The translations under genes were made by a program, and so were the position numbers. A DNA stretch of 64,000 bases from Eubacteriales bacterium (GTDB taxonomy: Bacteria; Bacillota; Clostridia; Lachnospirales; Lachnospiraceae), in contig JAUNJF010000007.1 of assembly GCA_030533405.1 (NCBI GenBank), forward strand, positions 1-64,000. The letters run 5' to 3'. The notes beneath the pieces are model-generated. The model worked only from the letters and a program-made list of their open reading frames with translations, was not told the origin of the DNA and did not search any database. Below are positions 16,994 through 51,481 of this stretch, piece by piece (position 1 is the first letter of the stretch; each line of letters opens with the position of its first letter).

Positions 16994-17344
16994 CTACATT
17001 AAAAATGATTGTTTTCTTGCTTGTTCCCACTCCTCATAACGACTCTCATACTGTTCATTCAGCCAGGCAATCATTTGCTCTTTCCCCTCCATATCAAATG
17101 GAAATGTAGCCTTTGTCTTTAACGCATCATCTGTTGCCTCAAAACAATATGGTTCCGGCCAAATAATTGCTTCAAATACTGCCGGACTCTTTTTTTCTGG
17201 CGGCGTCAACGCACAATCCTCCATGGGATCACGTGCCAATCGGAATCGCATGCCTCTATGACTTCCCAAATACGGCTGTGCATGTTCGTACCATGTAATA
17301 CCATAAGAATCTTTATTCTCTATTTTAACAATTTCTTTCCTCAT
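16994..17344 (-). CDS. Uncharacterised small protein (116 aa)
   Basis: I do not recognise a family. The protein is soluble, rich in aromatic residues and Glu, with 'YGITWYEHAQPYLGSHRGMRFRL' around residues 14-36 and 'FEAIIWPEPYCFEATDD' around 60-76. A helical, charged C-terminus follows ('NEQYESRYEEWEQARKQ'). A TTG at 17353 is possible but has no spacing for a ribosome site; the ATG at 17344 has GGAG just upstream, so I choose it. It lies 11 bases after the coiled-coil membrane gene and 15 before the GH3 gene, so it is transcribed with both. Confidence 0.65.
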   Translation of the reverse strand: MRKEIVKIENKDSYGITWYEHAQPYLGSHRGMRFRLARDPMEDCALTPPEKKSPAVFEAIIWPEPYCFEATDDALKTKATFPFDMEGKEQMIAWLNEQYESRYEEWEQARKQSFLM

Positions 17345-17355
17345 AATCTCCAACC

Positions 17356-18534
17356 TTAATTCTCTACCTGAATATGGTAAATCTCCAACTCACGTTTTAC
17401 CTGATCCCGCAAACTTGGATCTTTTCGCAACATATCCTTGATATCACGAAGTCCATTTAAACGCAATTGCTCATTATAAGCAATCTGTTCACGCAACTTT
17501 TGCCTTCTGACATTTAACGAATGCTTTACCTCTACCATCTCACGATTATCAATCAAAGCAATTGATTGTTTTGTCCAAATGTCCGGATCCTTTACTCCGT
17601 AAGAAAACAGCAATTTTGATAATTGATCATTATACTCTTTCAAATCACCAACCGATTGTTGATATTTTCTTACTTCATCTACCATAATCATATACTGATC
17701 ATATAAATATTCCAATTCGCGTAAACTTTTAATCTTATATTTTCCATATATATATTCCAAGGTCGATGTATTATTGATATATTTTATTTTTACTTTGTTC
17801 ATTAAGTTAATCGCACGGTTTTCCTTTATTTCACTTAATTTAAACTCATACGACAATCGACGATACACCACAATCGACATGGCAGCGACACTCGCTACAA
17901 CTAACAAAATAAGCAAAATTGGTAAAATCAAAATATTATCTGTTAACACTCCAACAATTGCCAATGTGAGCACAGAAAGCACAGAAATAATACCAAAGCC
18001 CGTGATAAATGTACGCAACTTCATCTGTCGATCATCAATGCTGTCCTGCAAATATTCCAAAGAATTTTTTTCAGCCTCTAAATGTTTTAAATCGCGCTTT
18101 ATTTTCATATCCATCTCTTCCAGATTCTTAATCTGTAAAAAGATTTCAGATAAATTCTTTTCCATTCCCTGAATCATTCTGAAATTTTCATCACTGATGC
18201 GATCATCAGAATGTAAAAACTGAGAAGTTTCTGTTTCCAGAAATGAAATCTTTTTGGCAATATCAACAATCTCTTTTTTTGAGGTTACTGGTAAATCCTC
18301 AATCAGCTGAATATCCTCAAAATAAGAGGTTACCATCTCGTATTCCACCCGCAAATCTTCCATCTGATAGGTTGCATCTACAATTTGATCACATTTAAAT
18401 GCAACATCATCCTGTGGCTCATCGCCCTTTGATTGCTGTTTTGCCAGGAAGCTGTCGATACTCTCATATTCAAATGTTTCTTCCGTTACCTCGGTCCTTG
18501 AAAAAAAGTCCTTCACGGCGCTCCATAATCCCAT
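17356..18534 (-). CDS. Coiled-coil protein with a central double-membrane hairpin
   Basis: A 392-aa protein that I cannot assign to a named family. Residues about 50-170 are predicted coiled coil (heptad-like Leu/Ile with Glu/Lys). Two adjacent hydrophobic helices follow (about 172-193 and 198-220), and a second long coiled coil covers about 225-380. With no signal peptide, both coiled coils would lie on the cytoplasmic side, anchored by a hairpin. The N-terminus 'MGLWSAVKDFFSR' looks like an amphipathic membrane-association helix. It is the fourth gene of the cluster with the ASKHA-fold ATPase, 25 bases after the TPR-like gene. Its likely role is a membrane anchor or scaffold for that set; this is inference. 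Confidence 0.75.
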   Translation of the reverse strand: MGLWSAVKDFFSRTEVTEETFEYESIDSFLAKQQSKGDEPQDDVAFKCDQIVDATYQMEDLRVEYEMVTSYFEDIQLIEDLPVTSKKEIVDIAKKISFLETETSQFLHSDDRISDENFRMIQGMEKNLSEIFLQIKNLEEMDMKIKRDLKHLEAEKNSLEYLQDSIDDRQMKLRTFITGFGIISVLSVLTLAIVGVLTDNILILPILLILLVVASVAAMSIVVYRRLSYEFKLSEIKENRAINLMNKVKIKYINNTSTLEYIYGKYKIKSLRELEYLYDQYMIMVDEVRKYQQSVGDLKEYNDQLSKLLFSYGVKDPDIWTKQSIALIDNREMVEVKHSLNVRRQKLREQIAYNEQLRLNGLRDIKDMLRKDPSLRDQVKRELEIYHIQVEN

Positions 18535-18559
18535 TTTTTTCTCCTCGCTTTACAGCACA

Positions 18560-19393
18560 CTATACCGTCTGTTCTCGAAACTCTTCCTTTAATTTTTCAA
18601 TTACAGTATCCATTCTTTTATTAAAATCTGTCAGATTATTTTTCTCATAATGATACATCGCCTTTTGCATACGATGATACACCGCAGAACCTACTACATC
18701 CGTTTGTGCATCCTCAATCGCATCATACAGATTCAGCAACATACCATCCACCTGATAGTACTTTGCTAAAATCTCAATATCCTCTTTGCTTCGCATTGTT
18801 GCCTGCAACAAAAGATACTCATATATACTTCTTGGATTATTTGTTAACTCATATGCCTTCAAATAGCATTTTGATGCCTCTTCCAACTCAAAGTTGTACG
18901 CCAACGCAACAGCACGATTATGATAAATACTTCCCAAAAAGTCATCCTGATTGAGTGTTGCAACCTCCTCAAGAATTTCATCATAGATTGCAATTGCCTT
19001 TAAATACTTGTGATATCGCAAAAATCCATCCGCCTGCATCTTGCGAAATTGCGGTCTAGGAAGTCCTTTCATACGCTCCATCTGGAAAATGAAATCCTTT
19101 ACTTCCTGAATCGTATAATACTCCTTATAGGTTAAAATCGCCGCCAGTAAATCCGTCAAATCCGTCGACTCTTTCTCCTTAATCTCACGAAGCTGCGTAG
19201 CAAGCTGCTGTAATCCCAATTCCTGTTCAATCCAATGAAACATTGGCATCGCAATATATTCCTCAGCAATCAAAGCAACATTATTGTATATATAAAAACA
19301 CAATTCCTCATACGAAAAAACTTCGATTTTGGTATTTGGAAAAATATATGAAGTTGTCGCTTCCTTTGTTTCACATAGGATTACTCTACTCAT
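18560..19393 (-). CDS. Uncharacterised helical (TPR-like) protein
   Basis: A 277-aa, almost all-helical protein. The region 140-200 has TPR-like helix pairs ('FLRYHKYLKAIAIYDEIL' then 'YHNRAVALAYNFELEEASKCYLKAYEL'), which usually serve protein binding. The N-terminal 50 residues look like a small beta-containing domain ('MSRVILCETKEATTSYI'). A longer reading frame starts at 19459, but the ATG at 19393 has AAGGAG eight bases upstream and gives only an 8-base overlap with the ATPase gene. I choose this start. The overlap indicates translational coupling with the ATPase, so the two products probably act together. Confidence 0.75.
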   Translation of the reverse strand: MSRVILCETKEATTSYIFPNTKIEVFSYEELCFYIYNNVALIAEEYIAMPMFHWIEQELGLQQLATQLREIKEKESTDLTDLLAAILTYKEYYTIQEVKDFIFQMERMKGLPRPQFRKMQADGFLRYHKYLKAIAIYDEILEEVATLNQDDFLGSIYHNRAVALAYNFELEEASKCYLKAYELTNNPRSIYEYLLLQATMRSKEDIEILAKYYQVDGMLLNLYDAIEDAQTDVVGSAVYHRMQKAMYHYEKNNLTDFNKRMDTVIEKLKEEFREQTV

Positions 19394-20645
19394 AGAATTT
19401 TCTCTCCTTGCGGTATATCTTATTCGTTGTTGGATATATTTTCCCAAATCCCACATCACGAATTACAATAGCACCCATACGCTCATCGAACAGTTCCACT
19501 TCCACCGATAACTTCGTTGTCTTCGGCGGGCGCTTTGGAAGTCCATGAATCTCTATAATCTCTTTTTCAACCTCTTTGGTTATTTTATCTCGGTACACCA
19601 TTTCAATTCGATTGGTATCATCCAAAAAAACAGTAACCTTTCCATTCATGTTGTACCACTCTCTTCCGCCAATTGCGATTGGATGAAAATGATTCCGACC
19701 ATCCACATCTCCAATATTGACACCAATATCAAACGGAATACTTCCCTGTGTTGCCAAAACACTACCAGAAACAGCTTCGTATGCTCCAAGCTTTGCATGA
19801 TAACATGCACCTTTTGTATAAATATTTTGTCCCATAAACACACGTTTTCCGTCACACAAAATCTTTTTCGACTCTACAATCCAATCATCATTAAATCCTG
19901 GTCCCGTCAAATATACAGTGGAAATATAGGTTTCTCTCATTTTTACCTTTGCAACTTCTGCAAACTTCTTATCCAACTCCTCAATATCTTCAAAGAGCAT
20001 CGCATATTGAATATCTTCTTTTAAATCCTGTCTGCTCAAATAGAAGAAGCGATTCCCACCTCTTTGTACTTTATCTATTCTATAATATTCCAAGCCATCA
20101 AAACCGTACTCAAACATTGCTACACTGTTGTTTCGAAGCGTTTCATCCTGATTCATCACATATTGGAAAAATGCATTTTCGTGACTCATAACATAAAACT
20201 GTTCATCACTCAAAGACAGTTCTTTTTTCAATTTCTGAAGCACATCATATACTTTTGGATGATACTGTTCTAATGCAATTGTCAGTCCACACAGCTGATA
20301 ATCCTCCGAACGCGAAATAAACTCCTCGATATACAATTTCAAAAGTTTTAACAACAATTCATCATATGTATAAATATCTGATCCAACAAAAACGGATACA
20401 TCCGAATCAATATGACCTACAATGTCCTCAATCATGACACCTTCCGTTTGAAATCTAACCTGACTGACATGATTTCCAACATACCATTTTTCTTCTTCTA
20501 ATGAATAGAACATAACATTAGGTAACTGATATGTTTCTGTATTATTCAATTGGTAAATAGACTCTGGCTCATTCTTATCTTCTCGAAAAAAACTTATCTG
20601 AATATTTTTTTTACATAAGTCAAGCCCTAAATAAATCTCTTTCAT
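19386..20645 (-). CDS. Actin/Hsp70-fold (ASKHA) ATPase-like protein
   Basis: A 419-aa protein with the order of ASKHA nucleotide-binding motifs. Phosphate-1-like 'YLGLDLCKKNIQIS' lies at 5-18, an Hsp70-like 'GLTIALEQYHPKVYDVLQKL' helix region at about 120-139, phosphate-2-like 'VAMFEYGFDGLEYYRI' at 175-190, an adenosine-like 'VYLTGPGFNDD' at 244-254, and a connect-2-like 'KGACYHAKLGA' at 278-288. The phosphate-2 Asp of Hsp70 (FDLGGG) is Glu here (FEYGFD). The C-terminal 90 residues form beta-rich sequence unlike DnaK substrate-binding domains. No DnaJ or GrpE gene is near. It lies 4 bases after the 1190-aa gene and overlaps the TPR-like gene by 8. Fold assignment is from motifs only; family name and function unknown. 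Confidence 0.7.
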   Translation of the reverse strand: MKEIYLGLDLCKKNIQISFFREDKNEPESIYQLNNTETYQLPNVMFYSLEEEKWYVGNHVSQVRFQTEGVMIEDIVGHIDSDVSVFVGSDIYTYDELLLKLLKLYIEEFISRSEDYQLCGLTIALEQYHPKVYDVLQKLKKELSLSDEQFYVMSHENAFFQYVMNQDETLRNNSVAMFEYGFDGLEYYRIDKVQRGGNRFFYLSRQDLKEDIQYAMLFEDIEELDKKFAEVAKVKMRETYISTVYLTGPGFNDDWIVESKKILCDGKRVFMGQNIYTKGACYHAKLGAYEAVSGSVLATQGSIPFDIGVNIGDVDGRNHFHPIAIGGREWYNMNGKVTVFLDDTNRIEMVYRDKITKEVEKEIIEIHGLPKRPPKTTKLSVEVELFDERMGAIVIRDVGFGKIYPTTNKIYRKERKFYE

Positions 20646-20649
20646 TTGT

Positions 20650-23600
20650 CTACTCCATTATCTCCAGGTTTTCCTCTACAATAGCCGCTAGTTTCAAGTA
20701 TTTATCAATCTTGTTAATCAGAATCTGGCTCTCACCAATCTCCTGATTAAATAACATCGAATTCAGCATTTCAAAGCGATTTTCGTATTCTTCCGTCTCA
20801 CCCTTTGCCTTCATTCCTTCACTTTCATAAATCTTTGTATGTTCCATATTTTCTGGTTCCATTTCATATAATAAATTCTCCCCATGGAACAACACAAATT
20901 CCTTTAAATAATAACCTGGTAACACTTCCATCATTCTGGCATGTTTATTGCACTCAGGCTTTTCTACACCACACTGTATACCATAACGGAAACGAATCTG
21001 TTTACCCGCTTTATCCTTTGTAACAACATATGTCATCAAATATAAATCCTTTGGTAGTTTGATATAACGCTTGAAGCTTCTAAAAAACGGAAGCAATATT
21101 CCACGCTTCACAAAATGCTCCAACTGCGCTTTTACCCATGTCACTTCCTCTTTATCCAATCTTGGCTTCCGACTGTAATAAAGTAGTTGTGCCGCATAAA
21201 GCGTATCATCCGATAAACTCTCCGCCATCATTTGGCGATACAATGCATCAAAAAATGCATCTGCTAATTCCACATCCTCAACAACATATGCAAATGAAGC
21301 ACGTTTGAAAAACGCCTTAATTACAATGCCACGTCGTTTTTTCTCTGTATATTCAGCAAACAAACGAAAAATCTCCGGATACCACTGTTCTGTATATAAT
21401 GTTTGACAAAGGATATTCTCTTCTAAATTATCCAATCTGGAAATCTTACCATTCGCGCGTTTCCACAGCTTCAACATATCCTTTACACTACTTTGGTAAT
21501 GATCCACCAAATATGCAAGAATCATTGGCGTTTCCTGTCTCGTACGATATAAATATACAGCAATTGCAATCAACATATCTTCAGATGCATACTGTGGAAG
21601 TTCTCTCAATCGTTCCACAAGATGCACCAAATAATTCACTTCTACGCCCTGATATCCAAATCGTCTCAACGCATCAAATGCTTTCTCAAAATAATCACAT
21701 TCCAACAAATAATTGATAAACGTTGCACCTTCTTTTGGATTCACGTATTCCATATCTACACGATTTAAATAACTACGCAAAATATCTTTGTCTAAATGAT
21801 CATGATAATACCGAACAATACTGTAAATTGCCTGTTGTTTGATTTCATCACTAATTTCTTCAAAACTTAATAAATCTCTTGCAATATTGACATCTCTTGC
21901 CTTGGATGCCCCATATGCACCTAAAATGTCATACTGATATAATACAAAGCGATAATCATCTGCTGCATATTGACCAAGCAATTCCATATATTGATCTTCA
22001 TCCACCAATTTTTGAAGCTTATATGGAATCGTGCTAACATAACAATTCTGATTCCGATCTACCAATGCAACAACTGCAGACTCCGTAATCATATCCACAT
22101 ATGCTACATGATTAATCACTGGATAAGTTTTTGCCTGTGCCAGTTCTCTATGTGAAATCACAACGGATGTAATATTGTCATTTGCTACAGTCAATTTACG
22201 CTTAAATATGACCTTGGTCAGACTACCTGCAAAATTAGGTCGCACAGTCTGCGGACACAAAAATTCAGTATAAAGCACACATAAATCATCCGACATGGCA
22301 CCCTTTACAATCTGGTCTTCCATAAATGCTTCCATGTTTGGAAGATATTCCTCATATTGTGACAGATACTGTCTGCGATTCACGACAACATTCGCGTACA
22401 AATACGCATACTCTTCATCGGACAATGCACTCTTATAATTAAAATAACGAAGCACCGATTCTGGAATTAAACCATATTTTGTCTTATCCATACTTCGAAG
22501 ATAGTGTTCTTGTATACCCACCAATTTATATCCACATTTAATGCCTTCCAAATAATATGGATAATAACTTAAATCCGTCTTGTCACCTTTTAATAGTAAC
22601 CCACAAATTACCTTAATCACTTCTGGCTTTTTATTCATTTCGTAAATCGTTTTGAGAAGCGAAAAAATTTGTATTGAGAAATCCCGCTCTCTCATTGCCA
22701 ATTGTACAAATTCTTCCTTAACTTCTGCTGCCAGATAATTGTTTTTCAATCCAAACCGAATGGCTGCAATTTCCACCTCTGTCAGTTTTCGAAGCATCAA
22801 CGGATCCGCATTTATCAAATCACAAATCTCGATCGCAAGTAATGGACTGTTATAACCTCCCATCACCAATCCTTCAATTTGTGAAAACATCCACTGCTTA
22901 TTTTTTTGGTAACGATCATCTAAATAAATCAACAACCAAAAATAAAACAACTTGTCTTTTTCTTTCTCTAACGCCTGCTCAATCTCTTCACATGCACTGA
23001 CCACCTGACGGGTATCACCAGAAAACACTGCCTTCAAATACATATAATAACAATGCTCTCTTTTACCTTCTTTGGCACGATCAAAATCCTCTTCCATGCG
23101 TCGAATTTCTTCTCTGGCAATATCCTTTTTCCCGGCCAAAATATTCATATGTAACAAGCCTAATTTGTACAATCCAACCTCTGGCTCATAAGAAATCAAC
23201 GCCTGCAGGCACGTTCTTGTCTTCTCAATAAACTGCTCTAACGAAACCAACCCAATTCGATAATCCAGATAATTATGAATCAACGCTACCTTTTCCAGTT
23301 TCTTCAAACGTCTGTCATGATCCTTATGCACCAAAATTCTAGACGCATCCTCTGGTTTTTTTACAATCACTTCCACAGAAATAGTCTGATAGGTACTCTC
23401 CAAAATCACATGCCCAATCTGCACCTCATTTTCATCCATACATTCTGGATCCAGTGTGTATTCAACAATACCCTTATCACCATCAAACTCTAAACTATTC
23501 ACACTTTCTCTGTGAACGGTAATGAATTTCGCATCTGTTCTCACCTTCATATTGCAATAACCCCAGGTATTTTTATGCAATATTAACTGATGTTCCTCAC

Positions 23601-24222
23601 GCATTTTCGGAAACTGAAATTGAAACCGACTATGCTCCACTTGTAATGTCAGCGCACGTTTCTTATGAATGTAAACCAAAAATTCCTCTAATGCCTGATT
23701 CAAATCAACAGAATCCTTTAAAGCTCTATATACCGTTACATAATCTGACTGCCCTGCAAGCATTGTTCTCTCAAACTCATCCGATTGGAAAATAGAAAGT
23801 GCTTTATTCCAATCTCGTTCTGCCAGGGCACAAAACTTCATCAAATCCTCTAACGCAACACCATTCACATCAATAAACGGTGCCACTACCTCAATATTAT
23901 AAGGAATCTCGCGTTCCATTCCATTCCCAATAATATGAAGCTTTCCCTCATAAACAGAGCCTCGTTTTTTTCCACAGGCATCAAACTGAAAACGAATCTC
24001 ACTTCGTCTTCCCACCAAACTATGGTTTTCTAAACACAACAAATAAGCATCATCATACACCATCATTTTCATTGGTATATCATTAACCGATTCTACCTGA
24101 ATACTTCCAGTGTAAATGCTGCCTGCCTCTATCTTTAATTGTAAGTAGCTCTTCGAAAATGTAAGCTTTGGGTATTCCACATAAAAATCACCCTTCGCAT
24201 ACTGTTCAACCTTGCTCTTCAT
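20650..24222 (-). CDS. Giant uncharacterised helical-repeat protein (1190 aa)
   Basis: A very large cytoplasmic protein without signal peptide or membrane helices. The first 110 residues look like an all-beta sandwich ('YPKLTFSKSYLQLKIEAGSIYTGSIQVE' region). Residues about 200-290 are a second beta sandwich. The remainder, about 300-950, is a long array of helix pairs resembling TPR/HEAT-type solenoids ('YDILGAYGASKARDVNIARDLL', 'YLLECDYFEKAFDALRRFGYQG'). The C-terminal 200 residues are mixed. I tentatively recall a clostridial domain of unknown function (DUF5717) of this size; not verified. It is the first gene of the cluster, 4 bases before the ASKHA ATPase, so it is the obvious candidate partner or substrate-recognition platform. 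Confidence 0.7.
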   Translation of the reverse strand: MKSKVEQYAKGDFYVEYPKLTFSKSYLQLKIEAGSIYTGSIQVESVNDIPMKMMVYDDAYLLCLENHSLVGRRSEIRFQFDACGKKRGSVYEGKLHIIGNGMEREIPYNIEVVAPFIDVNGVALEDLMKFCALAERDWNKALSIFQSDEFERTMLAGQSDYVTVYRALKDSVDLNQALEEFLVYIHKKRALTLQVEHSRFQFQFPKMREEHQLILHKNTWGYCNMKVRTDAKFITVHRESVNSLEFDGDKGIVEYTLDPECMDENEVQIGHVILESTYQTISVEVIVKKPEDASRILVHKDHDRRLKKLEKVALIHNYLDYRIGLVSLEQFIEKTRTCLQALISYEPEVGLYKLGLLHMNILAGKKDIAREEIRRMEEDFDRAKEGKREHCYYMYLKAVFSGDTRQVVSACEEIEQALEKEKDKLFYFWLLIYLDDRYQKNKQWMFSQIEGLVMGGYNSPLLAIEICDLINADPLMLRKLTEVEIAAIRFGLKNNYLAAEVKEEFVQLAMRERDFSIQIFSLLKTIYEMNKKPEVIKVICGLLLKGDKTDLSYYPYYLEGIKCGYKLVGIQEHYLRSMDKTKYGLIPESVLRYFNYKSALSDEEYAYLYANVVVNRRQYLSQYEEYLPNMEAFMEDQIVKGAMSDDLCVLYTEFLCPQTVRPNFAGSLTKVIFKRKLTVANDNITSVVISHRELAQAKTYPVINHVAYVDMITESAVVALVDRNQNCYVSTIPYKLQKLVDEDQYMELLGQYAADDYRFVLYQYDILGAYGASKARDVNIARDLLSFEEISDEIKQQAIYSIVRYYHDHLDKDILRSYLNRVDMEYVNPKEGATFINYLLECDYFEKAFDALRRFGYQGVEVNYLVHLVERLRELPQYASEDMLIAIAVYLYRTRQETPMILAYLVDHYQSSVKDMLKLWKRANGKISRLDNLEENILCQTLYTEQWYPEIFRLFAEYTEKKRRGIVIKAFFKRASFAYVVEDVELADAFFDALYRQMMAESLSDDTLYAAQLLYYSRKPRLDKEEVTWVKAQLEHFVKRGILLPFFRSFKRYIKLPKDLYLMTYVVTKDKAGKQIRFRYGIQCGVEKPECNKHARMMEVLPGYYLKEFVLFHGENLLYEMEPENMEHTKIYESEGMKAKGETEEYENRFEMLNSMLFNQEIGESQILINKIDKYLKLAAIVEENLEIME

Positions 24223-24375: not shown

Positions 24376-25476
24376 GTGTACGAATTGGTAATCGCAGATG
24401 AATCCTTCCATGGTAGCGATTTGGAAATTATTGCAGACCGCTACGGAATTGACATGAATCGAATTGTACCACATGCCTCAAATGTGAATCCACTTGGAAT
24501 TTCCAGTCTTGCCAAGCAGGCATTGATGGATAATATTGATGCAATTTGCTCCTATCCGGACCCAAACTATACAACACTTAAGAATGCCATTTCTAATTAC
24601 ACTGGTGCATCCGCCGACCATCTTATACTCGGTAACGGCACCTCTGAATTAATTCGATTGGTATTTAAAATATTAGCACCAAAAAAGACTATGATTATTG
24701 GTCCAACTTACTCAGAATACGGAAAGGCAGCCAAACAAACAGGGAGCGATATACACACTTATATGCTAAAGGAATCTGACGGATTTGAACTCGATCCACA
24801 GCAATTGGCATCTGCGCTTGATGCTTCCTTTGATTTACTTGTAATTTGTAATCCAAACAATCCTACAGGAAAAGCAATTCCTAAAAACAAGTTAGAACAA
24901 ATCATAACAGATTGCCAGAGCAAAGGTATTCTTGTTACAGTGGATGAAACCTATGTAGAGTTCGTAGATCAAATTGATTTGATTTCTGCTGTTTCACTTA
25001 CAGATACATACAAGAATCTTATTGTATTTCGCGGCATCTCCAAATTTTTCTCATCTCCTGGACTTCGATTGGGATATGCAATCACAACGAATCCACAATT
25101 TTTGGATGCTGCCAGCAACGACAAAACACCTTGGAGCATTAATTCCTTAGTCAGTGTTGCCAGTGTCATGTTCTCAGATGAGCATTTTATTAATTTGAGT
25201 CGCACGCTCATTCAAACAGAGCGTAATTTAATATATTCAGCGCTCTCGGTTCGAAAAACCATCAAGGTCTATAAACCAGATGCGAACTTTGTGCTGATTC
25301 GCTTATTAAAAGAAGGACAAACCGCCAGCGAAGTATTTGATTACTGTATCAAACGCGGCATCATGATTCGTGATTGTACAGACTATGAAGGACTCGGTGA
25401 AAAATATATTCGATTCTGTTTCTTAAAACCAGAGGAAAATGACAATGTTGTCAACACGATATTAGAAATTGTTTAA
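24376..25476 (+). CDS. Histidinol-phosphate aminotransferase / threonine-phosphate decarboxylase-like PLP enzyme
   Basis: A 366-aa class I/II aminotransferase. The N-terminus 'HGSDLEIIADRYGI' resembles CobD and clostridial HisC-like proteins. The central part has 'LILGNGTSELIRLV' (PLP phosphate binding), 'VICNPNNPTGKAI' (Asn and Pro around the cofactor), 'VDETYVEFV' (Asp) and the Schiff-base Lys in 'FRGISKFFSSPGLRLGYA'. The C-terminal Arg that binds substrate carboxylate is in 'KYIRFCFLK'. The start is uncertain: GTG at 24376, or TTG at 24385 with AAGGTG at better spacing. No his or cob genes are adjacent, so its substrate cannot be fixed. It is monocistronic, ending in a repeat-derived terminator. 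Confidence 0.8.
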   Translation: MYELVIADESFHGSDLEIIADRYGIDMNRIVPHASNVNPLGISSLAKQALMDNIDAICSYPDPNYTTLKNAISNYTGASADHLILGNGTSELIRLVFKILAPKKTMIIGPTYSEYGKAAKQTGSDIHTYMLKESDGFELDPQQLASALDASFDLLVICNPNNPTGKAIPKNKLEQIITDCQSKGILVTVDETYVEFVDQIDLISAVSLTDTYKNLIVFRGISKFFSSPGLRLGYAITTNPQFLDAASNDKTPWSINSLVSVASVMFSDEHFINLSRTLIQTERNLIYSALSVRKTIKVYKPDANFVLIRLLKEGQTASEVFDYCIKRGIMIRDCTDYEGLGEKYIRFCFLKPEENDNVVNTILEIV

Positions 25477-46278: not shown

Positions 46279-49200
46279 CTAAATGAATTCAAATGTTCCC
46301 TGACTATATTCTAGGTTCTGATATTCGATTTCATCCTGTGCTACCTGGCTTCTGTAATCCACAACAACCGTTTGCTGTCTTCCATTGATTAACTGCTGAC
46401 CAAGAATATAATTTACATCAAAACGATTGGTAATCGCAGGTGTTGCACCACGCGCAGGTACAATTAACTGCACATTATTTGTCTTAAGCAATGCAAATAT
46501 CGGTTCCCAAATGTAGATATCCTTTGCTGCACCAAATGGATTATCAATAAAGATTACCTTTTTCAAAGAATCTGGCTCAGCTTCTGGTGCATACATGCCT
46601 GAAATATAATTGATAATTGATACCAAAAACTGAATATAAATACCCTGCGACTGACCTGTACTACCAACAGCCTCCTCATAACGCAAATACCGGCTCTGCT
46701 CTTTCATACGTTCTCTCTTATACAGCTTCAAACGAATGGCATTCATATCGGTAACCAGTACAGAAAACAACTTCTTTAACAAAAGCTGATTCTTCATATA
46801 ACGAATTCTCTCGTTATTATCTGTAAATTTATCAGCACCATTTACCACCTCGTCAATATAATCCGACATCCGCTGCGCAATATATTCATCCTTCACATAT
46901 GGAATCGTCAAATTAACCATTTGGATTGTTTCACCATCTAGCTGAATGCATGAAAGCTTTGGTAATTTATCCAACTCTGTACGAACATCTTTGCAACGTT
47001 CAATACATTGATTTTCAAAATTATTCTTAATTGCCTCCATATCCTCTATTCCCCGTTCTACGCGTTCCTTCTCAAGTAAAATGTAGGAAATCATTTCGCG
47101 GATACTTTCCAATAACGCCTTTGCAGCCTCATACGTTTCTGGCACTTCCACATCATCTTTGATGGAATTCGATAATTCAAATGCACCCATCACAAAGAAT
47201 GTATTTGCTGTCTGCGCCTTGTAATTCATAAGGTCCTGTTTTGCACGTGCTAATGCTTTGTTACTCTTATCATATAAAAGCAAGCTTTCCTCAAATATCT
47301 CGCGAATCTGTTGCTGTTCCTGTGTTAACACGGTCGCACCAGAACAGTCTAGCGCCTCACTTTCCACAATTCGCTTTACATCTTTATACAAATCACGAAT
47401 CACACCATGGTTCTTCACATACTGCTGATATTGCTTTTGGAATGTTTTCATTTCCTCGCGAAGATTTCGAAGAACACGATCTCCTTCTGCAATTGCCTGC
47501 GTTGCCTCTTCTCTGGTAACAGATAGTGTTAACTGTTCACCGAAACGTTCCATAAGCGCCTGTAACGCCTGTTCAATTCGACCTTCCAAACGAGTTGCTT
47601 CATGCTCCTTCTTTTTATAGTCGTCTCGAATCTGATCACATCGAACTGCAACCTGTGATACCTGCAAACTGAGTCTGCTAATAAACGTCTCCTCAATTGG
47701 ATGCAATTCATTTTTCTCACGAAGCGACTCAAGCTGCTCTAACGAAACCTTACGACGCTCTATCATTTTCAACTCACGCTGCATGCTCTGTGATAATGTC
47801 TCTACAAGCTTTTTCTTGTCTTCCAATGCAACATTTTCCTTTTCGTGCATTGCCTTCGCCGCCAAGAATTCTGCGCGAAGCTGCTCCTGCGACATTACAA
47901 CCTCTGGATACTCTTTTTCCACATAATATGGCTTATATAAGCTCTCCCAATCAGCCAAAACAACATCTATTTGCTTTTGTAAATGTGCAGTCTGCTGTTC
48001 TAGTTCATCACGCTTTAAACACACAGTCTCATATTCCATGCGTGCCTGTTCCACGGCACTCTTTAGTCTACGACTTTCTGCTGTATAGTGATCAAGCTGC
48101 TCCTTTGTAGTATCTGCCAAATCACTGACTGCCTGAATGGACGCAAGCTTAATTCGCTCTGCCCCATTCATCTCTAACTTCTCTTCAATCTGCGCAAGTT
48201 CATCTTTCGTCTTTTCGCTATGAGACTTTAAATGTTGCATTGTCTTTTTCAACTCCTCAATCTCATGCTCTAATTCAAGTACCTGCTCTCGACCTGCCTG
48301 CACTTCATTTTCTGCATTGATAAATGCAGCATCTGTAAGCTTTGCGGTATAATCCAAATCCTCATTATAGGTTTGCTCTAACTCCAAAAATCGCTCCAAC
48401 TCTTCTACCAGCTCAGCCTGTTTCTTTTCCAAACGAGTTGCCTCCATTGAAAGCGCGTCCTCTTCTACAAAGCTACTTTTATCCTTCGAAAGTAAAATAA
48501 CTCCATCCTCTTTGGTAACCACACCTGGTTGTTCTAAAACTGTCTGGTCAAAAATTGGCACAGCCTGATTCTCTAACTCTAATGTATGAATTCGTTCATC
48601 ATCTTTTACGAGTTCAAAGTTCTTTGTCACAACACCATATGGCAACAATGGATAACGATTCATCAACTCTTCACGATTACTCTTTGGCAGAGCAGACAAA
48701 TAATCGACGCCCGAAAGCGCAAAATCCCCATGACGACTTTCCAAATAATCCTTTACCTTTGAAATTCCCACTGATTCTTCAAGAATTCGTCCTTCACGAA
48801 CCTGCTCTAAATGTCTCTCTAATCGCTCTATTTCCTTTCGGTGTCCAACAATTGCCACACGCTGATTCAGCGCACGCTCTTTTATGGTCTCATACAAATC
48901 TTCTGTCTTTTTCACACCATAGATTTGTGTCATTTTTTTAAGTCGATCCTGATTCCTAGAATACTGCGCATGTTTATTCATCGCCTCCACCAGAGCCTGT
49001 TTTGCCTGCTCATAGGACTGTCTTGCCACATACATTTCCTTATCCTTGTTGCCCAATGTCTCTATGTCCTCAAAATATACACGTTCCGCCTCTTCCTTTT
49101 GCACCTGCAAGTTCTTCGCCTCTTCTTCCAACGTAACAGACAATTCTTTCAGGTCACTTAACACCAATACTGCAATGTCCTTTCGAACCTTGCGAATCTC

Positions 49201-50718
49201 CTCCATGTGTTGCTCGTATTCCTGTTGCAAACGCTCTCTTTGGCTTTCTGCTACTGCCAGTGCAACGGTTCCTTCTTCACACACATGTGTTAAAGTACTC
49301 TCCTGCTCCTTGATATCAGCTAAGGCTTTGCTTTTTTCCTGTAACTGCACACGAATTTCAACTAACTGTTTATCATCCTGCTTCTTCTTTGTCCACGCAA
49401 TTCGGTGAAGCTTTTCTAACTGATTCGACCCACTATTGCTTGCAGCCTTAATCATTGCCTGATTCTCCTCCATAGAAGCCTTGTCTTCTAAATAGCGAAG
49501 ATAATCGTTCACGCTTTCTCTCAAATCCAGCTCTGCCTTTGCATTCTCAAGTTCCTGTTCTACCTGTTTTACATGACGTTCTAACACTTCCATGTCATTT
49601 TTTACGTCCTCTAACAGATATTGATCCTTTAACACCTTCAAGCTTTCGATTCTGCGTTCTTCCAATCGATAATGCTGATCCTTCTTTTCCTTCTCTTCTT
49701 CCATTTGTGCAATCTTTGCTTCACCATCTCTTGTCAAAGATTCACCTGTCACATAAATATCTGCAAGTGTTCCAGAAACCTTGTCCTTTTCCTCATACAG
49801 CTTCAGGAAAGAAGACACACGTCCCTCCAACAAATGCATCAGTTCTGTTTCTTTATCATAATTGGCAATCTCACTTTTCTTTTTGGATAACTCAACAAGC
49901 TTGTCCTTGATATCCAACAGGGTTTTTGCCATATCTTCGTTAACATCATTCTGTTCTGTCTTTACCAAAAACGCCTTCTCAATAATCTCTTCAATCAACA
50001 AGTCCTCAACAACTTTACGCGTTGTTTTATAATGCGTCTCAAAATAAGTACGCACATGACCCTCTGTCTTGTTAATGCCTCGAATAATTTCCCACTGACT
50101 TTCAAATAATCCATACTGACTAATAAATCTTTGGTACTCTCCCTTGCGCTCAAACACGTATACCTTCAAATTCAAATTACGACGACCAAGGTCTTTCAAA
50201 TAATTCTTAAGTCCACTATATGTAATACGCTCCTTTTGATTCTGCAACGGAAGATTCACAATATCATTGTCATTATAATCACGATAGAAAATACAATAAT
50301 TAAAATATTCAATGGATGCACTCAACTTTTCACCGCCAGCTGTCTTCGACACCTCTGTAGATTCTGTACCATCCTCGGCACCCTCTCCGTCTTTTGCCTT
50401 TCTGGCACAAAAGCCAGTCGTCATATAGCGATACCCTTCTTTTACGTCCTTATCATCCAGCTTCCACTCCACAAGCGAATGAATGGTGGTATTTCCACCA
50501 CCATTACGAAATAGTTTTTCAATTGGCTGTTTTTCATCCAATGTACAGTTTGGAATCAAATTCTGTAAAAGCAACAGCATAAGCACGCTCTTTCCACCAC
50601 CATTTGCAAGGTCATATAGCGTATTTTTTCCATACATACGCATTGAGAAATCATCGTAGCCCTGTGTTCCAAAATTATATTTTACATTATTTACTCGAAT
50701 TCTATTAATATTTGGCAT
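46279..50718 (-). CDS. MukB/MksB-like SMC-type coiled-coil ATPase
   Basis: A 1479-aa protein with SMC architecture. The N-terminal head has Walker A 'LANGGGKSVLMLLLLQ' (GGGKS at 40-44). Very long coiled coils cover about 200-620 and 770-1320, around a central hinge-like region near 640-740 ('YLSALPKSNREELMNRYPLLPYG' area). The C-terminal head has a signature-like 'GSTGQSQGIYIQFLVS' at about 1352-1367 and Walker B 'KKVIFIDNPFG'. Position 1393 is Asn where ABC/SMC ATPases have the catalytic Glu. Length (MukB is 1486 aa) and the 237-aa partner gene 49 bases upstream suggest a MukBE/MksBE/Wadjet-type complex. No kleisin or Toprim nuclease gene is adjacent. Plasmid or phage defence, or chromosome organisation, are the candidates. 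Confidence 0.82.
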   Translation of the reverse strand: MPNINRIRVNNVKYNFGTQGYDDFSMRMYGKNTLYDLANGGGKSVLMLLLLQNLIPNCTLDEKQPIEKLFRNGGGNTTIHSLVEWKLDDKDVKEGYRYMTTGFCARKAKDGEGAEDGTESTEVSKTAGGEKLSASIEYFNYCIFYRDYNDNDIVNLPLQNQKERITYSGLKNYLKDLGRRNLNLKVYVFERKGEYQRFISQYGLFESQWEIIRGINKTEGHVRTYFETHYKTTRKVVEDLLIEEIIEKAFLVKTEQNDVNEDMAKTLLDIKDKLVELSKKKSEIANYDKETELMHLLEGRVSSFLKLYEEKDKVSGTLADIYVTGESLTRDGEAKIAQMEEEKEKKDQHYRLEERRIESLKVLKDQYLLEDVKNDMEVLERHVKQVEQELENAKAELDLRESVNDYLRYLEDKASMEENQAMIKAASNSGSNQLEKLHRIAWTKKKQDDKQLVEIRVQLQEKSKALADIKEQESTLTHVCEEGTVALAVAESQRERLQQEYEQHMEEIRKVRKDIAVLVLSDLKELSVTLEEEAKNLQVQKEEAERVYFEDIETLGNKDKEMYVARQSYEQAKQALVEAMNKHAQYSRNQDRLKKMTQIYGVKKTEDLYETIKERALNQRVAIVGHRKEIERLERHLEQVREGRILEESVGISKVKDYLESRHGDFALSGVDYLSALPKSNREELMNRYPLLPYGVVTKNFELVKDDERIHTLELENQAVPIFDQTVLEQPGVVTKEDGVILLSKDKSSFVEEDALSMEATRLEKKQAELVEELERFLELEQTYNEDLDYTAKLTDAAFINAENEVQAGREQVLELEHEIEELKKTMQHLKSHSEKTKDELAQIEEKLEMNGAERIKLASIQAVSDLADTTKEQLDHYTAESRRLKSAVEQARMEYETVCLKRDELEQQTAHLQKQIDVVLADWESLYKPYYVEKEYPEVVMSQEQLRAEFLAAKAMHEKENVALEDKKKLVETLSQSMQRELKMIERRKVSLEQLESLREKNELHPIEETFISRLSLQVSQVAVRCDQIRDDYKKKEHEATRLEGRIEQALQALMERFGEQLTLSVTREEATQAIAEGDRVLRNLREEMKTFQKQYQQYVKNHGVIRDLYKDVKRIVESEALDCSGATVLTQEQQQIREIFEESLLLYDKSNKALARAKQDLMNYKAQTANTFFVMGAFELSNSIKDDVEVPETYEAAKALLESIREMISYILLEKERVERGIEDMEAIKNNFENQCIERCKDVRTELDKLPKLSCIQLDGETIQMVNLTIPYVKDEYIAQRMSDYIDEVVNGADKFTDNNERIRYMKNQLLLKKLFSVLVTDMNAIRLKLYKRERMKEQSRYLRYEEAVGSTGQSQGIYIQFLVSIINYISGMYAPEAEPDSLKKVIFIDNPFGAAKDIYIWEPIFALLKTNNVQLIVPARGATPAITNRFDVNYILGQQLINGRQQTVVVDYRSQVAQDEIEYQNLEYSQGTFEFI

Positions 50719-50767: not shown

Positions 50768-51481
50768 CTATTCCGCGTCTTTCTCCTCATTTAACAAACT
50801 GTATATCTGTCCACGATATTCTTCGAAATAATGTTCAACGATTGCATGAAAACGTTCCGTTGGATAATAGCGATGATTTACTTCAACAAATAAATTCTCA
50901 TTAACCAAAAAGTTAAACGTCAACTTTGTAAAGCTTGCCTTGGATGCTCGTGAAGCACGAATCTCTCCCTGTTCTTCTCCTGTGCTTGTTGGCAATTCAT
51001 CCCACAAAAGCGCAATCGACTGAAAACTTTCCTGTTGCTCCTCATCCATTGCATATACTGAAATATCCTTTGTAAAGACTGCTAAAGCCTTCGTTACTTC
51101 CTCTAAAACATTTTCAATCTTTATATATTCCTTAAACTGGTAGGAAGCGGAATCTGAATAAAATGCCAATAAAATCTCATAAATGATAAAATAACACAAA
51201 TATAATTCCTTATTGTACCTCACACCGATATAACGTTTTAACTCCTCGTTCGTATATCCAAAAATACGATTCCCCTCACCAGCTGACAAAAACAAACTTT
51301 CTTTATATTCGTAAATGGAAAGATTTAATTTTTTCAGCATAATTCCTACGATATCATAGACTTCCGCATTGCCATAATAATCATCATAAAGGGTACCATT
51401 TGCGCCACCCCTTTTGATTTCCTCTCCAGTTATCAGCTTTGCGTAAATATCTACTGCTTTCTCTAAGTTCTTTCTTTCCAT
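50768..51481 (-). CDS. MukE/MksE/JetB-like partner of the SMC protein
   Basis: A 237-aa, mostly helical protein whose C-terminal part reads like a winged helix: 'KLTFNFLVNENLFVEVNHRYYPTERF' region, then 'AIVEHYFEEYRGQIYSLL'. This resembles the KITE subunits (MukE, MksE, JetB) that bind the kleisin of MukBEF-type complexes; MukE is 234 aa. I recall related clostridial proteins under DUF6063, not verified. It lies 49 bases upstream of the SMC-like gene and 60 after the CpXC gene. No signal or membrane segment. The KITE assignment rests on size, context and the C-terminal pattern. Confidence 0.6.
   Translation of the reverse strand: MERKNLEKAVDIYAKLITGEEIKRGGANGTLYDDYYGNAEVYDIVGIMLKKLNLSIYEYKESLFLSAGEGNRIFGYTNEELKRYIGVRYNKELYLCYFIIYEILLAFYSDSASYQFKEYIKIENVLEEVTKALAVFTKDISVYAMDEEQQESFQSIALLWDELPTSTGEEQGEIRASRASKASFTKLTFNFLVNENLFVEVNHRYYPTERFHAIVEHYFEEYRGQIYSLLNEEKDAE

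Follow-up and report, generated by a model that had tools for sequence, protein, structure and literature searches.

Among the gene neighbourhoods described so far, the nearest found to the one reported here is the HSP70 theme of the GAP1-N2 systems, in which, according to Kaur et al. 2020 (PMC7159879), HSP70, GrpE, a second HSP70-like gene and an FNIII-TPR protein lie in one neighbourhood. At the level of the single protein, Ssz1/Hsp70L1 is described (PMC2685646) as not being an ATPase in vitro, with a short substrate domain, no lid and a proposed role as a scaffold. The locus considered here is a four-gene unit (A, B, C and D) in a 64,000-nucleotide (nt) stretch of a Lachnospiraceae genome (contig JAUNJF010000007.1); this whole stretch is called the window, and its relatives are sampled genomes of the same family, order, class and phylum. 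Judged by its sequence, the product of gene B is an Hsp70 by descent and, by the features tested, not an Hsp70 ATPase. We consider it probable that B is the degenerate Hsp70 of an operon that has shrunk, orthologous to the P2 protein of a larger operon (described below), and that it now serves in an ATP-independent client-binding or adaptor complex, tethered to the membrane where D is present; this function is one that we infer.

The locus shares with DnaK-GrpE a homologous nucleotide-domain core and a substrate-binding beta domain, and the larger operon encodes a GrpE-domain protein (PF01025). It differs in that B is missing the catalytic residues, the alpha lid and the greater part of the lobe-IIB region; the unit also comes with scaffold, TPR and, in part, membrane genes, and no J-domain occurs among the operon proteins scanned. 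Ssz1/Hsp70L1, unlike B, is eukaryotic, has a J-protein partner and binds nucleotide. The GAP1-N2 systems are centred on GTPases with GAP1, whereas the operon proteins scanned here include no GTPase, and the larger operon has four Hsp70-type genes, one of them fused to a vWA domain, and was found in one order only.

The four genes of the unit are as follows (coordinates in the window; aa, amino acids):

20650 – 24222, minus strand: gene A, DUF5717, 1190 aa (PF18984, 820 bits over 1 – 872; PF18983, 195 bits over 881 – 1184)
19386 – 20645, minus strand: gene B, DUF5716, 419 aa (PF18980, 292 bits over 121 – 414)
18560 – 19393, minus strand: gene C, TPR-like, 277 aa from the ATG at 19393 (299 aa from an in-frame GTG at 19459)
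17356 – 18534, minus strand: gene D, membrane coiled-coil protein, 392 aa (nothing convincing in Pfam)

A preliminary description, made from the sequence alone, had reported four head-to-tail open reading frames (ORFs), and these are present where it placed them; the spacing computed from the ORF coordinates (A-B 4, B-C -8 and C-D 25 bases) also agrees with it. That description had proposed a new system. The families were in fact already catalogued, since B and A match DUF5716 (PF18980) and DUF5717 (PF18984, PF18983) above the curated Pfam cut-offs, but their origin had indeed gone unexplained: the Pfam descriptions of both state neither a function nor a relation to Hsp70, and a literature search found no paper describing either. 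Scans of window A, B, C and D against NCBIfam and PHROGs gave weak, chance-like matches only, and neither a J-protein nor GrpE was found among the seven window genes scanned in Pfam.

In other families of the order, most of the DUF5717 loci that were opened belong to a much larger operon. Named carriers are Defluviitalea phaphyphila Alg1, several Candidatus Epulonipiscium and Defluviitaleaceae assemblies, and Petrocella sp. FN5. The gene order is A_N, A_C (fused in some), P1, X, P2, P3, P4 and C, with D and a valyl-tRNA synthetase gene in some families. Apart from A_N, A_C and D, the operon genes encode:

P1: Hsp70, about 557 aa (HSP70 5.5e-71 and 5.1e-76, two copies)
X: coiled coil with a C-terminal GrpE domain (PF01025), mostly 559 – 653 aa, 279 in one (GrpE 1.4e-8, 5.4e-12 and 3e-13, three copies)
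P2: semi-degenerate Hsp70, the B orthologue, 412 – 535 aa
P3: Hsp70, about 545 aa (HSP70 2.6e-51 in a cut copy, and 7.4e-63)
P4: Hsp70 fused to a vWA domain, about 692 aa (HSP70 4.5e-96 and VWA 1.9e-10, one copy)
C: TPR protein, about 387 aa (many TPR models, three copies; the gene at this place in locus L114 had no Pfam match)

The core genes that each locus holds keep the same order and strand in 39/39 named loci, 21 of which are complete from A to C; these loci were found via X, so that all of them contain it. The operon was found only within this one order, and literature searches found no description of it. In a phylum-wide test for the operon beyond the order, a profile of the GrpE-domain protein X matched 37 of 249 genomes, all at 39.9 bits or less and in frames of 184 – 273 aa like ordinary GrpE, in a sample that held no larger-operon genome matching X and hence no internal positive control. 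Seven genomes with the larger operon have 7 – 9 HSP70-model matches each, ordinary DnaK included. No J-domain occurs among the larger-operon proteins scanned in Pfam, the flanks not having been searched with a J-domain model.

Profile comparisons make the Hsp70 identity of B well supported. With hhalign, 41 B proteins of the window's family align to the operon P3 Hsp70s with a probability of 99.7 (E 1.4e-26, 405 columns), and all 43 B-clade proteins align to 10 P2 orthologues at E 3e-45 (422 columns) and to 14 P3 Hsp70s at E 6.8e-27 (409 columns). The B-clade profile aligns over its full length with P2 and P3, and over the first half only with P1, P4 and DnaK. A PDB search with the profile of the window's family alone recovered DnaK chains at E 2.5e-6 over the first 153 columns, and addition of four P2 sequences of other families and one from family f129 lowered this to E 2e-9; every PDB match of the B profile below E 0.01 is a DnaK or Hsp70 chain. 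Weaker matches (E 0.033 – 0.044) are to chains titled 'Putative heat shock protein', which we take to be Ssz1.

The same data point to P2 as the counterpart of B. The best-scoring of the four paralogue profiles is P2 for 43/43 B-clade proteins (the P2 profile was built from 10 of the 14 P2 sequences, those of families f125 and f142 being omitted), and P2 proteins match both Pfam models (DUF5716_C 6.2e-14 with HSP70 1.2e-5 in one, 1.5e-26 with 1.4e-17 in another). P3 also matches DUF5716_C weakly (7.5e-10), in keeping with a kinship of P2 and P3. In a careful tree of 31 chosen rows (10 of the 43 B, 7 of the 14 P2 with three long-branch f142 copies omitted, 5 of the 14 P3, 4 P1 and 3 P4), the 10 B and 7 P2 proteins form one clade with support of 100/100 next to P3. 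B nests inside P2, and the P2 copy nearest to it is that of family f125 (JAQSXR010000023.1). A quick tree of 85 rows agrees, with MreB outside, although its long branches, noted in the careful tree too, call for caution. At the level of sequence, then, B is shown to be the orthologue of Hsp70 slot P2 of the larger operon. Locus L068, of family f129, is of the short A-B-C form and falls within the window-family clade.

These comparisons also bear on whether B might form actin-like filaments or serve some cell-envelope process as a membrane adaptor of the PilM/FtsA type, its Hsp70 ancestry being history only. Its ASKHA ancestry and the membrane protein gene found alongside in part of the loci would suit such a role. 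It is nevertheless unlikely, as B scores with the P2 and P3 profiles, the significant PDB matches are all to DnaK or Hsp70 and MreB falls outside in the quick tree (FtsA and PilM were not compared); moreover the beta domain is kept, and B is unlikely to bind the nucleotide on which filament dynamics depend.

The catalytic Lys is the residue of the Hsp70 ATPase, and lobe IIB is the part gripped by GrpE. Motif columns were those fixed in P1, P3, P4 and DnaK, and were read in B-family proteins of at least 375 aa, which number 43 (the window, 41 of its family and L068); rows were assigned by a grouping rule, which took in 13 of the 16 P1 and 11 of the 12 P4 rows of the quick tree. The motifs are intact in P1 (13/13), P3 (14/14) and P4 (11/11), and the catalytic Lys is present in each of these proteins, against 0/43 in B and 0/14 in P2. 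In loop-1 (phosphate-1), B has the Gly in 10/43, the first Thr in 0/43 and the second Thr in 2/43; the Gly, Gly, Gly and Thr of loop-2 (phosphate-2) are found in 2, 8, 0 and 1 of 43, and the second adenosine Gly in 0/43. At the former adenosine site the B clade displays a signature of its own (G in 42, G in 36 and F in 41 of 43, at columns 1, 3 and 4). P2, besides having no catalytic Lys, is already partly degenerate (loop-1 Gly 12/14, loop-2 Asp 12/14, second adenosine Gly 10/14). The lobe-IIB region, taken from the phosphate-2 to the adenosine motif, spans 50 – 74 residues in B, 107 – 142 in P2 and 133 in DnaK, so that in B it is shortened by about 70 residues. The beta-rich C-terminus of B aligns with the Hsp70 substrate-binding beta domain and ends before the alpha lid. 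Absence of the lid is not unique to B, because in P1, P3 and P4, too, the match to the HSP70 model ends at about position 477 – 514 of 599.

The preliminary description had noted Hsp70/actin-type nucleotide-binding motifs in order and had called B an ATPase. Its placing of the family was sound, as the alignment to the operon Hsp70s (E 1.4e-26 over 405 columns) and the DnaK chains in the PDB confirm, but the motifs are degenerate, and the catalytic Lys, the first loop-1 Thr and the second adenosine Gly, each found in 0/43, contradict an ATPase. The two features it had raised against an ordinary Hsp70 also lose their force: the missing GrpE has a counterpart in the larger operon of relatives, where a GrpE-domain protein sits, and the beta-rich C-terminus aligns with the very domain expected of an Hsp70. 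An ATP-driven chaperone or motor centred on B, as first proposed, would draw on its Hsp70 lineage and on the way the genes stay together; the residue counts for the Lys, both loops and the second adenosine Gly, together with the shortened lobe-IIB region, make it very improbable.

The genes P1, P3, P4 and X were sought in the window's family, using per-genome best scores over all genomes for the three Hsp70s and, for X, the complete set of 24 matches. P1 was found in 0/120 genomes, the best score of 191 bits being at the level of DnaK while true P1 pairs reach at least 626. For P3 the result was 0/100 (best 200 bits, against at least 928 for true P3 and 192 for DnaK), and for P4 0/150 (best 271 bits, against at least 857 for true P4 and 255 for DnaK). 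X was likewise found in 0/150, with a best score of 41 bits in frames of 200 – 276 aa, a level typical of ordinary GrpE, where true X gives 120 – 697. The full operon is spread across many families, and the short form is found in the window's family and one f129 genome. Since the full form is widespread, B is nested in P2, and P1, P3, P4 and X were not found in these genomes of the family, loss is the simplest reading. What the window's family keeps is A (two A genes fused), B, C and, in part, D. The window's own genome also encodes DnaK, one further Hsp70 and two MreB-like proteins.

Within the family the short form is nearly universal. DUF5716 occurs in at least 293 of 299 sampled genomes (at least 292 of 298 genera), and in the phylum sample in 4/299, all four from the window's family. 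DUF5717_N is present in at least 94 of 196 genomes of the order and in 10 of 245 of the class, nine of these being of the same family and one a weak match below the cut-off. Gene order was followed in 42 relatives' loci, hand-picked and mostly on long contigs (L068, L067 of the window's family, and 40 from other genera of that family). In all 42, A, B and C lie side by side on the same strand, with median gaps of 16.5 and -2.5, which argues that their order is not due to chance, and D comes after C in 14/42. In the window's genus D is in place in 7/8 stretches, the eighth contig stopping after C. The idea put forward at the outset that the genes are one conserved unit is thus borne out for A, B and C, and in part for D; separation of A, B and C in relatives, which had been named as evidence that would refute it, was not seen.

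Gene B is under purifying selection within the genus. Against seven same-genus copies the proportions of non-synonymous (pN) and synonymous (pS) differences are 0.175 – 0.245 and 0.71 – 0.93, and omega is 0.10 for the sole pair with a computable synonymous distance, which is itself near saturation. Across the wider family divergence is great: window B is 19 – 27% identical to 39 of 41 other short-form proteins (43 – 44% to two), and window A is 19 – 27% identical to 36 of 38 relatives' proteins (36 – 37% to two). That the locus is a decaying remnant without function, as the lost catalytic residues and the loss of four of the nine larger-operon genes might suggest, is scarcely credible and already disfavoured, given retention of B in at least 293 of 299 genomes, this selection and the adenosine-site signature proper to the clade.

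As to how the complex might work, the larger operon would encode a machine driven by Hsp70s and served by an exchange factor of its own, to which some families add a membrane protein. As for the short form, B would be unable to run an ATPase cycle and would have lost most of the lobe gripped by GrpE, which suggests that the complex works without ATP. A may be the platform, on which B would present its retained beta domain either as an adaptor or as a clamp, fixed and lidless, for peptides or proteins; C would link partners, and the assembly would be fixed to the inner side of the membrane by D or, in loci lacking D, by some other anchor. Such an assembly might hold clients or pass them to housekeeping DnaK. 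Whether this amounts to a core, ATP-independent pseudo-Hsp70 machine throughout the Lachnospiraceae (DUF5717-DUF5716-TPR, often with a membrane coiled coil), derived from an eight- to nine-gene machine stripped of its intact Hsp70s and exchange factor, seems to us evenly poised. The Lachnospiraceae are one of the main human gut families. The DUF5716 and DUF5717 genes, for which no role had been found, now have a proposed origin and a biochemistry that can be tested. The same operon with and without intact Hsp70s offers a natural experiment on which chaperone parts may work free of ATP, and the shrinkage of the exchange-factor lobe and the missing GrpE-domain gene co-occur in one lineage, as expected if the two are linked.

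Several points weigh against an ATP-independent complex of this kind, or against parts of it. B retains the loop-1 Asp in 36/43, the loop-2 Asp in 21/43 and the first adenosine Gly in 42/43, residues that leave room for ATP binding without hydrolysis, and conservation of its beta domain does not clearly exceed that of the remainder of the protein. The fold of B is predicted from sequence profiles; window B alone has no match to the Pfam HSP70 model (PF00012) up to E 0.1, and in the careful tree it sits on the longest branch. Any contact among A, B, C and D is putative. With D beside C in only 14/42 loci, a membrane tether is not general. Chaperones do not usually evolve as fast as B does, which may indicate that its partner or client varies.

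The chief alternative has B acting in trans on housekeeping DnaK, much as Ssz1 and other atypical Hsp70s work alongside active ones in eukaryotes, as a non-hydrolysing recruiter or regulator, with A, C and D positioning DnaK at a membrane site. This is possible, if rather doubtful. The genome still encodes an ordinary DnaK and a further Hsp70, the ancestor of B shared its operon with intact-motif Hsp70s and a GrpE domain, and Ssz1 (PMC2685646) offers a precedent, an Hsp70 that shows no ATPase activity and for which a scaffold role has been proposed. Any contact of B with DnaK is, however, hypothetical; B lacks much of the lobe that GrpE grips, and no J-domain occurs among the operon proteins scanned, within the limits of the search given above.

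An ATP-independent client-binding or adaptor complex is also to be weighed against an immunity device akin to the GAP1-N2 conflict systems of Kaur and co-workers. In its HSP70, GrpE, further HSP70-like and TPR proteins the larger operon resembles the second theme outlined in that work (PMC7159879), and B evolves fast. In PADLOC, larger-operon proteins of other families gave weak matches for P4, C and a membrane protein M (see below): P4 to PDC-M61B (4.4e-7) over the Hsp70-type region, and C to PrimPol, PDC-M71B and PDC-M16B (4e-6 to 0.004) over the TPR-type region. Window A, B, C and D, on the other hand, matched no PADLOC family up to E 0.1, B is near-universal in its family, unlike patchily distributed immunity genes, and no GTPase was found among the operon proteins scanned in Pfam, where no GAP1 model was run and the flanks were only partly scanned. 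An immunity role is accordingly quite improbable.

Gene A is equivalent to a fusion of A_N (about 390 aa), to which its first part corresponds, with A_C (about 900 aa), the counterpart of the remainder. Most loci of other families have A_N and A_C as two genes, and the models PF18984 and PF18983 also match the separate A_N and A_C genes of one relative (L062). For the putative beta-sandwich and helical solenoid of the preliminary description, the sequence of A offers weak TPR similarity only. Window C has sub-threshold TPR matches in Pfam, and its orthologues of 386 – 390 aa in other families have clear TPRs in 3/3 scanned; a C profile matches 10/12 larger-operon loci. D has one long central hydrophobic stretch (peak at 201 – 219); inspection by eye suggests a membrane hairpin flanked by coiled coils. 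A profile of D matches the gene at the same place in 5/12 larger-operon loci (124 – 223 bits), and in 6/39 of the named loci.

The larger operon itself varies. Locus L143 (= L056/L110) is without P4 and C, the Petrocella loci L162 and L168 have no P3 call, and L054 and L063 have A_N and A_C with no Hsp70s alongside. In JAQSXR010000023.1 (L050/L112/L171), of the family nearest to the window's by B, the GrpE-domain protein is 279 aa long, P4 is in two frames and C in two pieces, which may reflect either ongoing decay or assembly error. In L147, L148, L150, L152, L154 and L155 (Defluviitaleaceae or Clostridiales) extra genes are inserted among the core genes, judged by eye to be beta-lactamase-fold, nudix, acetyltransferase and methyltransferase-like.

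Directly upstream of A_N in 12 of the 21 larger-operon rows that have a same-strand upstream gene (the other nine list four genomes twice) is the gene M, which encodes a membrane protein, read as three transmembrane helices, with a C-terminal coiled coil (e.g. L148:1821 – 2993, L059:9828 – 11150, L060:4683 – 5975 and L164:440 – 1768). No D call was made in those 12 loci, several of the stretches ending before the place of D, and M may be an alternative membrane anchor. The PADLOC matches of M are to ZorA, weak, limited to the coiled-coil parts and seen in one of two copies; seven copies showed no match to MotA in Pfam.

Elsewhere in the window, on the minus strand at 46279 – 50718 and 50768 – 51481, lie genes resembling JetC3 (1843 bits) and JetB3 (341 bits) of Wadjet type III. 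Three ORFs neighbouring them gave no match, no search having been aimed at other Wadjet members. The immediate neighbours of the A-B-C-D unit are:

24376 – 25476, plus strand: class I/II aminotransferase (PF00155), divergent from gene A
16994 – 17353, minus strand: ORF of 119 aa, 2 bases past D, with no family match

The aminotransferase is a positional anchor common to the window and the larger operon, and not a component of the system. Counted with profiles made from single sequences, so that the figures are lower bounds, a homologue lies within the 18-kb stretch in at least 20/40 window-family loci, 15/39 named larger-operon loci and 7/8 same-genus loci, and the valyl-tRNA synthetase gene (identified in Pfam) in at least 4/39 named larger-operon loci and 7/40 window-family loci. 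The recurrence of these two neighbours points to one ancestral place for both forms of the operon. The 119-aa ORF probably lies outside the core system; it is found near D in 5/8 same-genus loci and in 0/60 loci of other genera.

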